DNA of 64,000 bases from Bergeyella zoohelcum ATCC 43767 (GTDB lineage: Bacteria > Bacteroidota > Bacteroidia > Flavobacteriales > Weeksellaceae). The position numbers and the translations under genes are program-made. The notes beneath the pieces are model-generated. The model made no database searches, was not told where the DNA came from, and was given only the letters and a program-made list of their open reading frames with translations. Of the stretch, positions 26,113-50,664 are shown piece after piece. Position 1 is the stretch's first letter, and every line of letters begins with the position of its first letter. Where the stretch lies: NCBI RefSeq assembly GCF_000301075.1, contig NZ_JH932293.1, positions 1,461,673 through 1,525,672 on the forward strand, read 5' to 3'.

Positions 26113-26185
<73 letters not shown>

Positions 26186-26190
26186 CTTTA

Positions 26191-26263
<73 letters not shown>

Positions 26264-34868: not shown

Positions 34869-35629
34869 TGAATTTTAATGAACTCAAAGACCTGCTAGAT
34901 GCCAAAGTAGAGCAGTACAATACACCTGATTTTATCCTCAATGACCCGATACAAATTCCGCATCGGTTTTCTGCGGTTCAAGATATAGAGATTTCCGCTT
35001 TCCTTACCGCTACTATCACTTGGGGAAATAGAAAAAGTATCATCAAATCAGCGGATAAAATGATGCAACTTTTGGGAGATGCTCCTTTTGAATTTGTTCA
35101 AAATCATACCGCAAAAGATTTAGATTTCATTGAGAAACAAACGGTTCATAGAACTTTTAAGGGAGAAGATTTAGTATTTTTCATTCATAGACTTCGTTTA
35201 TTGTATCAAGAGCAGCCCTCTTTAGAGCATTTCTTTTTACCTTTGGAACATGAAATCAATATGAAAGAAGCACTGCATCGGTTCAGACAAAAATTTTTGG
35301 GCGAAAATCCTCATAGAGCATTTAAACATGTGAGCTCTACCTATGCCAATGCACCTGCGAAACGACTGATGATGATGCTCCGGTGGTTAGTAAGAAGAGA
35401 CCATAAAGGGGTAGATTTAGGCATTTGGAAAAAAATTCCTACCGAAATACTTTCACTTCCATTGGATGTTCATGTAGGAAATTTGGCAAGAACTTATGGG
35501 CTTTTAACCAGAAAACAAAATGACTGGAAAGCGGTGGAAGAACTGGATTATATACTGAGAAAAATGGATGCAGTGGATCCTGCAAAATATGACTTCGCCC
35601 TCTTTGGAATGGGCATAAATGAGAAATAA
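34865..35629 (+). CDS. TIGR02757 family protein
   Basis: 254 residues from the ATG at 34865 that overlaps the previous stop; a second ATG follows directly. The sequence fits the TIGR02757/DUF2400 family: FILNDPIQIPHRFSAVQDIEI, FLTATITWGNRKSIIKSADKMM, MMMLRWLVRRDHKGVDLGIW, LPLDVHVGNLARTYGLL and the ending DFALFGMGI. The second half resembles the helix-hairpin-helix DNA-glycosylase-like fold, so a nucleic-acid role is possible, but nothing is established. Confidence 0.9.
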   Translation: MMNFNELKDLLDAKVEQYNTPDFILNDPIQIPHRFSAVQDIEISAFLTATITWGNRKSIIKSADKMMQLLGDAPFEFVQNHTAKDLDFIEKQTVHRTFKGEDLVFFIHRLRLLYQEQPSLEHFFLPLEHEINMKEALHRFRQKFLGENPHRAFKHVSSTYANAPAKRLMMMLRWLVRRDHKGVDLGIWKKIPTEILSLPLDVHVGNLARTYGLLTRKQNDWKAVEELDYILRKMDAVDPAKYDFALFGMGINEK

Positions 35630-35648
35630 TTTGAAAAACAATAATGAT

Positions 35649-36236
35649 ATGACATCAGCTGAAAAAGCACAAGAAAGCATTTCAAGATTAGAAAAAATAT
35701 GCAATAATATTATGTACTGGATGGGCTCCACACAATCGCTCATAGTACACACGCTTATTTTCATTTTGTCATTTTTACTTCCTGTTTTTAATATTGTGGA
35801 TTTTGACAAAATGCTCATGGTACTTACCAATGTACTTTCTCTAGAAGCAATTTATTTGGCCATCTTTATTCAAATGTCCGTAAATAAAAGTTCTGAGCAT
35901 ATTGAAGATCTTAGGGATGATGTAACTGAAATTCAAGAGGATATAGAGGATATTCAGGAAGATATTGAAGAGATTTCAGAGGACATCGAAGAAATTTCTG
36001 AAGATATTGAGGAAATCTCTGAAGATATTGAAGAAATTAATGAAGATATTGAAGATATTCAAGAAGATATTGAGGAAATCAACGAGGAAGAAGAAGACGA
36101 AGATCACAATGAAAGAGCAAAAACAGTAATGCTCAAAAGTAATGTCTATACCAATAAAAACGCCATCAAATCTCTTCAGGAGAAAATCCAAAAAATGGAA
36201 GAAGAGCTGAATAGACTGAGAAATAAAGAAGAATAA
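35649..36236 (+). CDS. Two-TM protein with seven-fold heptad-repeat coiled coil
   Basis: 195 residues from the ATG at 35649 (an ATG at 35619 would overlap the previous gene). Two membrane helices (about 30-48 and 55-77, ending EAIYLAIFIQMSVNKSS) resemble DUF1003. Seven nearly identical heptads of the type (Q/S/N)EDIE(E/D)I follow at 96-144, encoded by 21-base tandem units, then a strongly acidic patch and a second coiled coil. The product should be an inner-membrane protein with a long acidic cytoplasmic coiled coil. Function unknown. Confidence 0.75.
   Translation: MTSAEKAQESISRLEKICNNIMYWMGSTQSLIVHTLIFILSFLLPVFNIVDFDKMLMVLTNVLSLEAIYLAIFIQMSVNKSSEHIEDLRDDVTEIQEDIEDIQEDIEEISEDIEEISEDIEEISEDIEEINEDIEDIQEDIEEINEEEEDEDHNERAKTVMLKSNVYTNKNAIKSLQEKIQKMEEELNRLRNKEE
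35934..36080 (+). repeat. Seven tandem 21-bp units encoding heptads
   Basis: Units of the form CAAGAAGATATTGAGGAAAT plus C begin at 35934, 35955, 35976, 35997, 36018, 36039 and 36060. The units differ mainly at wobble positions. Confidence 0.9.
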
Positions 36237-40601: not shown

Positions 40602-40609
40602 TATTTTTG
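40602..40609 (+). promoter_or_regulatory. Probable -7 promoter element of the riboswitch transcript
   Basis: TATTTTTG fits TAnnTTTG directly upstream of the cobalamin riboswitch. Confidence 0.45.
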
Positions 40610-40611
40610 TG

Positions 40612-40730
40612 CATTCGTTTTTTAGAGGAATTACGGTGAATCATGTGAAAATCATGAGCTGTCGCGCAACTGTAATTTGTTTTGATACAAAAAGCCAGAT
40701 CCCGTCTTCTAAAACTACTTCGCGAAAACC
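40612..40730 (+). ncRNA. Cobalamin (B12) riboswitch
   Basis: The conserved core GCTGTCGCGCAACTGTAA (40658-40675) is that of RF00174. TTACGG (40631-40636) pairs with CTGTAA (40670-40675, one G-T pair) and encloses a TCATG/CATGA stem with a GAAAAT loop (40641-40657). A small TTTGT/ACAAA hairpin and the B12-box-like AAAGCCAGATCCCGTC (40691-40706) follow. It would fold around a corrinoid and shut down the downstream gene. Such riboswitches normally precede btuB-type TonB receptors or transporters; here the next gene is a thioesterase. ATGATGCT/AGCTTCAT (40731-40757, one mismatch) might be part of the expression platform. Confidence 0.85.
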
Positions 40731-40780
40731 ATGATGCTGAAAATGATTTAGCTTCATAATAAATAAGTAAACGATAAACA

Positions 40781-41197
40781 ATGAATTACGAAGACAGAAT
40801 TGCGGATTCTATTACCCGCGTGTGTAAAGTAGTGTTTCCTAACATTACTAATCATCACAATACCATGTTCGGAGGTACCGTTATGGAAATGATGGACGAA
40901 GTAGCTTTTATGACTGCTACTAGATTTGCCAGAAAATCTTTCGTTACGGTAAGTTGTGATAAAATAGATTTCAAAAAGCCTATTCCTGCAGACACCATCG
41001 TAGAGCTCATCGGGAAAGTAAAATATGTGGGCAATACCAGTATTAAAGTAAATGTAGAAATTTTTGTAGAGGAAATGTTTGCCGAAAGCCGAGAAAGGGC
41101 TGTTTCAGGAGATTTCACTTTGGTAGCAATTAATAAAGATAAAAAACCTGAAAAGATTTTTAATGGTGTAGAAGAAATTACATCTATTGGTAAATAA
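40781..41197 (+). CDS. Hotdog-fold acyl-CoA thioesterase (YciA type)
   Basis: 138 residues. The hotdog signature is NHHNTMFGGTVMEMMDEVAFMTATRF with the catalytic Asp in MMDEVAF, followed by VTVSCDKIDFKKPIPADT and VKYVGNTSIKVNVEI. It hydrolyses acyl-CoA thioesters, possibly a wide range of chain lengths. It starts about 50 bases after the cobalamin riboswitch with no other gene between, so it may be controlled by B12, which has no obvious metabolic reason; alternatively the riboswitch is a relic. Confidence 0.92.
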   Translation: MNYEDRIADSITRVCKVVFPNITNHHNTMFGGTVMEMMDEVAFMTATRFARKSFVTVSCDKIDFKKPIPADTIVELIGKVKYVGNTSIKVNVEIFVEEMFAESRERAVSGDFTLVAINKDKKPEKIFNGVEEITSIGK

Positions 41198-47907: not shown

Positions 47908-48882
47908 ATGGGAATTTTTGATAAACGCATAAGCTATAAACCTTTTGAATATCCAGAGGTATTACAATTTATAGAGGCAATTAATAAATCTTTTTGGGTA
48001 CACTCTGAAGTAGATTTTACTGCGGATATCCAAGATTTTCACTCTCAGCTAGAACCCCATGAAAAAAATGCAGTAAAACATGCACTTTTGGCAATTGCTC
48101 AAATAGAAGTTTCCGTAAAAACTTTTTGGGGAAATCTCTATCAGCATCTTCCAAAGCCAGAACTCAACGGGCTGGGAGCTACATTTGCAGAATGTGAGTT
48201 TAGACACTCAGAAGCCTATTCTAGATTATTGGAAGTGCTCGGTTACAATGATGAGTTCCTCAGCGTGGTGGAAATACCTGCAGTAAAGAAAAGAATAGAT
48301 TTTCTTAGTAATGTATTGAAAAATGCCAATTCTACTACGCCAAAAGAATATGTATCATCACTATTACTATTCTCCATTCTCATAGAAAATGTCTCTCTTT
48401 TTTCTCAGTTTGCCATTATTCTATCGTTTACCCGATTTAAAGGCTATATGAAAAATGTGAGCAATATCATCGCTTGGACCTCTGTAGATGAACAAATTCA
48501 TGCCAATGCAGGAATCTATCTCATCAATAAAATCCGTGAAGAGCAACCTGATCTACTTACAGACCAAGACATCGAAGAAATTTACCAGCTTATAGACGAG
48601 TCTTTAAAGGTAGAGAGCGAAATATTAGATTGGATTTTTGAACTGGGCGAAATTGATCATGTTTCAAAGGAAAATCTACTCCATTTTATGAGATACAGAG
48701 TAGATGATTCTCTTAAAAAGATAAGTATGCCTACTCGCTATAATGTATCAGAAGAAGAATATAAACCTATGGTTTGGTTTGAGGAGGAAGTTTTCGCCAA
48801 TTCACTAGATGACTTTTTCGCCAAAAGACCAGTGGACTATACCAAACATGATAAATCCATTACAGCAAACGATTTATTTTAG
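47908..48882 (+). CDS. nrdB: Class I ribonucleotide reductase small subunit
   Basis: 324 residues, ferritin-like. Metal ligands are visible as Glu67, Glu97 with His100 (ECEFRH), and later Glu in LIENVSLFSQF and Glu/His in SVDEQIHA. Tyr104, four residues after His100, occupies the place of the E. coli radical Tyr122. The N-terminus starts directly at the fold; no ATP-cone is fused. It stores the radical used by NrdA. A hairpin with a T-run separates it from nrdA downstream. Confidence 0.96.
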   Translation: MGIFDKRISYKPFEYPEVLQFIEAINKSFWVHSEVDFTADIQDFHSQLEPHEKNAVKHALLAIAQIEVSVKTFWGNLYQHLPKPELNGLGATFAECEFRHSEAYSRLLEVLGYNDEFLSVVEIPAVKKRIDFLSNVLKNANSTTPKEYVSSLLLFSILIENVSLFSQFAIILSFTRFKGYMKNVSNIIAWTSVDEQIHANAGIYLINKIREEQPDLLTDQDIEEIYQLIDESLKVESEILDWIFELGEIDHVSKENLLHFMRYRVDDSLKKISMPTRYNVSEEEYKPMVWFEEEVFANSLDDFFAKRPVDYTKHDKSITANDLF

Positions 48883-49008: not shown

Positions 49009-50664
49009 ATGGAAGAACAAACGCACATATGGTGGCTCAATGAAGAGTCTGAACAAATGCTCAATAGAGGGTATTTATTAAAAGGTGAAACCGTGGAAGG
49101 AGCTATCGATAGAATAACGATGGCTGCTGCTAAACGCCTTTATAAACCAGAACTTCAGTCTGCTTTCAAAGAAATGATTGTGAAAGGGTGGATTAGCTTT
49201 TCATCTCCTGTTTGGGCAAATATGGGAACACAAAGGGGCTTACCTATTTCTTGTTTTAATGTACATATCCCAGATAGTATAGAGGGTATTACGCATAAAA
49301 TGGGAGAAGTGATTATGCAGACGAAAATAGGAGGGGGCACTTCGGGCTATTTTGGGGAGCTGAGACATAGAGGGACTGCTGTTACCGATAATGGCAAATC
49401 TTCGGGAGCTGTTTCTTTCATGAAATTATTTGATACTGCAATGGATGTAGTATCACAGGGAGGGGTTCGCCGTGGAGCTTTTGCCGCTTATCTGGATATT
49501 GACCATGGGGATATCGAAGAGTTTTTATCCATTAAAGATATAGGTTCACCTATTCAGAATCTTTTCATCGGAGTTTGTGTACCAGACTATTGGATGCAAG
49601 ACATGATAGATGGGGATCTGGAAAAAAGAAAAATCTGGGCAAGGGTACTAGAAAGTCGCCAGCAGAAAGGACTTCCGTATATTTTCTTTACCGATAATGT
49701 CAATAGGAATAAACCTCAAGTGTATAAAGACAAAGGGCTCATGATTAATGCGAGTAACCTTTGTTCTGAAATCATGCTTCCATCCACCCAAGAAGAGTCT
49801 TTTATTTGCTGTTTATCTTCCATGAATTTAGAACTTTACGATGAATGGAAAGATACCAATGCAGTGAAATTGGCGGTGTATTTCTTAGATGCTGTTTTAT
49901 CTGAGTTCATTGAGAAAACGGAAGGCAATTATTATCTACAATCGGCAAGAAATTTTGCTATTCGCCATAGAGCATTAGGTTTAGGTGTTTTAGGGTATCA
50001 CTCTTATTTACAGAAAAATATGATTCCTTTTGAGAGCTTTGAGGCTACCCAATTTAATGCGAAAGCATTTAGGCAAATTAAAGAACAAGCCGAAGCAGCA
50101 TCCAAAGAATTGGCAAGTATCTACGGAGAACCAGAAATGCTGAAAGGCTATGGACTGAGAAATACTACCACCATGGCTATAGCTCCTACTACTTCTAGCT
50201 CCGCAATTTTAGGACAAACTTCTCCAGGAATAGAGCCTTTTGCTTCTAATTATTACAAAGCGGGACTAGCCAAAGGAAATTTTATGCGTAAAAATAAATA
50301 CTTGGCCAAGCTATTGGAACAAAAAGGATTGGATACCGAAGAAACTTGGAGAACAATTATGCTGAATCACGGCTCAGTGCAGCATTTGGAAGGACTTACG
50401 GACCACGAAAAAGCTGTATTTAAAACTTTCAAGGAGATTTCACCTATGGAAATCATTTCTCAGGCTGCCCAGAGACAGCAGTATATAGACCAAGCTCAAT
50501 CGTTGAATTTACAAATACCTTCTACCATGCCAGTGAAAGATGTGAATTATTTATTGATAGAAGCATGGAAAAAGGGAGTGAAAACACTGTACTACCAGAG
50601 AAGTTCATCGGTTTCTAAAGAACTAATGGTGAACTTTGTAAATTGCACCAGTTGTGAGGCTTAG
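49009..50664 (+). CDS. nrdA: Class I ribonucleotide reductase large subunit, short form
   Basis: 551 residues, about 200 shorter than E. coli NrdA, mainly because the N-terminal ATP-cone is missing; the protein begins near the catalytic barrel. Active-site residues are Cys82 (PISCFNV), Asn250-Cys252-Glu254 (NASNLCSE), and Cys267/268 as partner; the radical-transfer tyrosines are in KTLYYQRSSS and the C-terminal redox cysteines are Cys546 and Cys549 (CTSCEA). It reduces ribonucleotides to deoxyribonucleotides. Without a cone in either subunit, dATP inhibition through that site is not expected. Confidence 0.96.
   Translation: MEEQTHIWWLNEESEQMLNRGYLLKGETVEGAIDRITMAAAKRLYKPELQSAFKEMIVKGWISFSSPVWANMGTQRGLPISCFNVHIPDSIEGITHKMGEVIMQTKIGGGTSGYFGELRHRGTAVTDNGKSSGAVSFMKLFDTAMDVVSQGGVRRGAFAAYLDIDHGDIEEFLSIKDIGSPIQNLFIGVCVPDYWMQDMIDGDLEKRKIWARVLESRQQKGLPYIFFTDNVNRNKPQVYKDKGLMINASNLCSEIMLPSTQEESFICCLSSMNLELYDEWKDTNAVKLAVYFLDAVLSEFIEKTEGNYYLQSARNFAIRHRALGLGVLGYHSYLQKNMIPFESFEATQFNAKAFRQIKEQAEAASKELASIYGEPEMLKGYGLRNTTTMAIAPTTSSSAILGQTSPGIEPFASNYYKAGLAKGNFMRKNKYLAKLLEQKGLDTEETWRTIMLNHGSVQHLEGLTDHEKAVFKTFKEISPMEIISQAAQRQQYIDQAQSLNLQIPSTMPVKDVNYLLIEAWKKGVKTLYYQRSSSVSKELMVNFVNCTSCEA

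Follow-up and report, generated by a model that had tools for sequence, protein, structure and literature searches.

A cobalamin riboswitch precedes an acyl-CoA thioesterase gene in Bergeyella zoohelcum and in many of its relatives

Cobalamin riboswitches are grouped in Rfam clan CL00101 (RF00174; RF01482, AdoCbl; RF01689, AdoCbl-II), whose members have a common core, stems P3-P6 and an L5-L13 kissing loop. Their targets are typically transporters, enzymes of corrinoid biosynthesis or isozymes of B12-dependent enzymes, the last group including the B12-repressed MetE and class I NrdAB. Other targets, a fatty acid desaturase among them, were described by Kazanov 2007 (PMC2211319). A conceptual analogue of the locus presented here, and the closest idea, is the low-B12 propionate shunt of Caenorhabditis elegans, in which low B12 switches on a B12-independent route round blocked propionyl-CoA breakdown (PMC7561351). 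Among hotdog thioesterases of the YciA/ACOT type (PF03061), YciA of Pseudomonas putida acts on propionyl-CoA (PMC9399607), and methylsuccinyl-CoA and mesaconyl-CoA are substrates of enzymes in the wider family (PMC9529712). In the open-access papers searched, no cobalamin riboswitch was reported to target an acyl-CoA thioesterase. The riboswitch class is known; the thioesterase target and the regulatory logic appear to be new.

The window analysed here (the whole 64-kb stretch of DNA) displayed such a pairing:

40622-40712, + strand: compact aptamer of a cobalamin riboswitch, comprising P1-P6 but no large accessory domain (RF01689, RF00174, lineage model, covariation)
40781-41197, + strand: acyl-CoA thioesterase of the hotdog fold (4HBT), 138 amino acids (PF03061, PDB profile matches, orthologues)

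The window element shared the core, P3-P6 and the kissing loop with clan CL00101 and was of the same kind as the elements found before btuB-like, metE and nrd genes in relatives. It differed from the clan in being compact, in scoring slightly under the Rfam cut-offs and in its rearranged expression platform. Its target differed as well, being a hydrolase rather than a transporter, a corrinoid biosynthesis enzyme or an isozyme of a B12 enzyme.

At Rfam gathering thresholds, which are curation thresholds, the 64-kb window yielded tRNAs only, and the cobalamin aptamer was missed by a small margin. It was recovered with lowered Rfam thresholds and with a lineage-specific covariance model. AdoCbl-II (RF01689) was the best Rfam match to the leader (35.0 bits, cut-off 36.5, E 9.2e-7), while RF00174 reached 27.7 bits in a genome-wide search (cut-off 31.5, E 3.6e-5). 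The RF00174 match above the gathering threshold, by which the original prediction was to be judged, therefore failed narrowly; the cobalamin aptamer itself stood, as a compact form scoring best with RF01689 and not as a full-length RF00174 element. Homologous loci with the aptamer directly upstream passed the RF00174 cut-off (111 bits for L010 and 114.7 bits for L198). The lineage model (R1), built from the aptamers of 20 relatives with the window excluded, matched the window at 40632-40735 (+) with 72.2 bits (E 2.4e-17), which confirmed a cobalamin aptamer upstream of the thioesterase, and it gave no second match anywhere in the 64 kb. A single RF00174 match in the genome was stronger (80.6 bits); it lies upstream of a gene for a TonB-dependent receptor. 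The ATG of the thioesterase gene (40781) lies 68 nt 3' of the aptamer end, correcting the spacing of about 50 bases given previously.

The thioesterase matched PF03061 with 60.6 bits (Pfam cut-off 20.6, E 1.9e-16), and its PDB profile matches were the acyl-CoA hydrolases 2gvh, 2eis, 1yli and 3bjk. Orthologues were 53-86% identical and conserved the motif NHHNT-FGG-MDE. Fold family, size and conserved motif were thus common to this protein and to the YciA/ACOT type, from which it differed by forming a separate Bacteroidota orthologue group and by its predicted B12 control. The YciA equivalog model NF007970 gave 50.2 bits, far under its 162-bit cut-off, so that "YciA-type", as the protein was first called, is a loose label: the hotdog 4HBT assignment held and the YciA equivalog assignment did not. 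A more distant hotdog paralogue of the same genome (C1:619491) was near neither of the two riboswitches of the genome.

The leader contained the following further elements:

40602-40609, + strand: putative Bacteroidota -7 promoter element TATTTTTG, just 5' of the riboswitch (sequence inspection)
40662-40666, + strand: L5 loop UCGCG, 5' side of the L5-L13 kissing loop (alignment)
40721-40725, + strand: L13 CGCGA, 3' side of the L5-L13 kissing loop (alignment)
40716-40769, + strand: predicted expression platform, stem UACUU (40716-40720)/AAGUA (40765-40769) round hairpin 40731-40757 (minimum-free-energy folds)
40731-40751, + strand: six-codon frame ATGATGCTGAAAATGATTTAG, proposed as a scar, inside the predicted platform hairpin 40731-40757

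The putative promoter fits the Bacteroidota -7 consensus, TAnnTTTG, and TATATTTG-type elements occupied the equivalent place in relatives. In a structural alignment of 22 aptamers including their expression platforms, standard pairs filled 96.5% of cells (35-51% in slid controls), compensatory changes on both sides occurred at 12 of 28 pairs, and the covariation score was 0.238 against 0.04-0.08 in the slid controls. P6 alternated between U-A and C-G, and P13 between A-U and G-C. The L5-L13 interaction (UCGCG/CGCGA) was paired in 99% of cells over the 22 sequences; in Filimonas (L109), L5 read ACGUG and L13 CACGA, so that one C-G pair has become U-A and one pair is mismatched. The minimum-free-energy fold of the whole window leader was unexceptional compared with shuffles (z -1.10), and folding energy alone was therefore not counted as evidence.

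Relatives carried the covarying P13 followed by a hairpin, P14, at the position of the platform. In the window, the predicted UACUU/AAGUA stem replaced this conserved P13, two of whose four pairs in model R1 were lost, a rearrangement which could have weakened the window's switch. In ligand-free folds of the leaders of three relatives, the hairpin reached into the 3' strand of P13, suggestive of two mutually exclusive states. Together with the sub-threshold Rfam scores and the loss of the riboswitch in sister genera, the rearranged P13 could point to a decaying, non-functional remnant. This seems quite improbable for an element which retained every core motif, intact stems P4-P6 and complementary L5 and L13 loops, which scored so well with the lineage model, and for which an alternative stem round the hairpin was predicted.

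The same region bears on another explanation, proposed with the original prediction, according to which btuB or another transporter gene once lay between riboswitch and thioesterase and its deletion left ATGATGCTGAAAATGATTTAG as a scar. The location of this frame within the predicted hairpin at the platform position means that, if the fold is right, it is no evidence of a deleted gene, and several genera kept the direct riboswitch-thioesterase order, with no intervening btuB. The deletion was rejected on both grounds, relatives' synteny and the folding of the frame into a hairpin, and is hardly credible.

Conservation of the pairing was wide. A first search of relatives, covering 12 orthologues, displayed the aptamer directly upstream of the thioesterase in seven besides the window (L004, L005, L007-L010 and L012), while in L013 it preceded an nrdB-thioesterase pair. 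A same-strand aptamer was found upstream of the thioesterase in 61 of 80 named relatives (60 by core motif, and L109 by inspection and covariance model). In a family census of 138 genomes, 83 of which had the thioesterase, the orthologous gene followed a same-strand aptamer in 66 of these 83, counting one locus found by RF00174. Conserved placement under a cobalamin riboswitch, as for metE- and nrdAB-type stand-ins, was thus found for the thioesterase in both samples. The scan covered as much as about 5 kb before each gene (1.5 kb for the window itself, represented by locus L003), and the opposite strand gave no match in 483 kb of upstream DNA, including 15 non-family loci, where about 0.8 was expected from shuffles. 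Judged from these sequence comparisons, the window aptamer is real and co-conserved with the thioesterase gene, and the regulatory link between the two is strongly supported by comparative genomics.

The riboswitch was missing before the thioesterase in 10 of 15 Epilithonimonas-like genomes (L143-L150, L152 and L156) and in the Riemerella loci, which represent natural controls without the switch. Most of these riboswitch-less Epilithonimonas-like genomes, as well as Riemerella columbina, kept acyl-CoA mutases. In Epilithonimonas tenax the riboswitch was gone and a promoter-like TATATTTG still stood before the thioesterase gene. A thioesterase tree (127 columns, poorly resolved) needed 26 changes of gene context, and on it gains and losses could not be dated. 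A genome titled Glaciecola amylolytica (CP034120.1, L087) grouped with Flavobacteriales in this tree and carried the same operon; it is probably misnamed, or else received the genes by horizontal transfer.

Several operon contexts were encountered. The thioesterase stood alone after the riboswitch in Chryseobacterium, Kaistella and the window, followed metE in Pedobacter, Mucilaginibacter, Taibaiella and others, and followed metE and fabH in five Pedobacter loci (L079, L085, L088, L092 and L108). It came after nrdB or nrdB-nrdA in Myroides, a Flavobacterium and further genomes of the family and class. A cysteine-rich CWC gene lay between riboswitch and thioesterase in L070 (5657-5905), L086, L087, L077 (4754-5173) and L110; the CWC proteins are small (PF14375), with DUF5522 also present in L077, and the gene is possibly a further B12-scarcity gene. 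Pfam matches in representative loci were to MetE, small and large ribonucleotide reductase chains, a FabH-type synthase and CWC. FabH would also consume short acyl-CoA starters. In one locus (L053), the fabH-thioesterase pair was kept, and neither metE nor a riboswitch motif occurred in the upstream DNA examined. The window has its own nrdB (47908-48882, +) and a short, 558-aa nrdA-like gene (about 49249-50595, +), with no cobalamin riboswitch match, unlike the nrdB-nrdA pair which is under a cobalamin riboswitch in relatives.

metE and class I nrdAB encode B12-independent substitutes, which places the thioesterase among genes for B12 scarcity. It shares operons with both in relatives and stands behind the same kind of riboswitch, but would bypass or relieve a stalled step instead of catalysing the same reaction. 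The recurrence of the pairing across relatives suggests an enzyme switched on at B12 scarcity, and repression by B12 is the direction expected by analogy with metE, nrdAB and btuB, which have the same element. A few operons also included a BtuF-like binding protein, DUF6580 or CWC proteins (L077), and in L089 a BtuF-like gene was close to the riboswitch and the thioesterase, which would fit a thioesterase acting itself in corrinoid uptake or remodelling. We regard such a role as improbable, as most loci contained the thioesterase alone or with metE or nrd genes, and as the PDB relatives of this motif-conserving protein are standard acyl-CoA hydrolases.

The B12 enzymes of the window's genome give an indication of the step concerned. 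A search for the B12-binding domain PF02310 yielded exactly two proteins, both acyl-CoA mutases: MutB, the large subunit of methylmalonyl-CoA mutase (740 aa), and an IcmF-like fused mutase of 1148 aa. This genome gave no match to the MetH activation domain, and both ribonucleotide reductase large subunits appeared, from gene context or sequence, to belong to class I, so that no link to methionine or deoxynucleotides was evident in it. A relief valve for the substrates of these mutases is the simplest reading. With B12 plentiful, the riboswitch would repress the thioesterase; with B12 scarce, the enzyme would be made. MutAB and the IcmF-like mutase would then lack their cofactor and acyl-CoAs of the propionyl-, methylmalonyl-, isobutyryl- or isovaleryl-type would pile up, which the thioesterase would hydrolyse, releasing CoA and an excretable acid. 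We lean slightly towards this reading, in which a riboswitch-controlled thioesterase, made at B12 scarcity and repressed at plenty, hydrolyses the acyl-CoAs behind idle mutases; its substrates and relief-valve role are what we infer from the genomic evidence. Genuine B12-controlled hydrolysis of CoA esters, one of the two possibilities originally raised, was supported by the recurrence of the riboswitch-thioesterase link in many genera and several operon contexts, and the suggested propionyl- or methylmalonyl-CoA connection is plausible on indirect evidence. By comparison with the C. elegans shunt, which relies on animal transcription factors and a multi-enzyme breakdown pathway, the window would use an RNA switch and a hydrolase.

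Co-occurrence with mutases was counted as weak evidence. Among thioesterase-bearing genomes of the family, the gene was riboswitch-linked in 65 of 78 with PF01642 mutases and in 1 of 5 without (Fisher p 0.006, kinship ignored), but this correlation is not phylogenetically independent, the tree offering no more than 2 to 4 independent pairs (sign test p 1). The exception, G271, had no PF01642 match and kept the thioesterase in a riboswitch-metE operon. This genome, the position of the gene behind metE or nrdBA in several clades and the presence of fabH in some Pedobacter operons are consistent with a thioesterase which belongs to the B12-scarcity regulon in a role not tied to stalled mutases, for example general adjustment of the acyl-CoA/fatty-acid pool, or service to the MetE- or NrdAB-dependent state. 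Such a role is possible, though less likely, given that the window's genome had no match to MetH or a class II reductase and that acyl-CoA mutases were its only PF02310 enzymes.

Extended to Bacteroidota at large, the relief of acyl-CoAs at B12 scarcity would add the riboswitch-controlled thioesterase to transport/biosynthesis and to B12-independent isozymes as a third class of target for cobalamin riboswitches, a generalisation to which we give an even chance. If true, the cobalamin riboswitch regulon would extend to acyl-CoA hydrolysis in a large, ecologically important phylum, and B12 shortage would be predicted to alter the excretion of short-chain and branched acids by Bacteroidota. A vaguely defined thioesterase family gains a condition under which to seek its substrate, and the way in which bacteria cope with idle methylmalonyl-CoA mutase becomes directly testable.

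Two other features of the window were observed. Two tandem tRNA genes (26113-26263, +) were identical in the anticodon arm (read by inspection as GAA, Phe) but differed in the acceptor stem. A predicted protein encoded at 35619-36236 (+) contained many EDIEEISEDIEE repeats, likely forming a coiled coil behind membrane-like segments.
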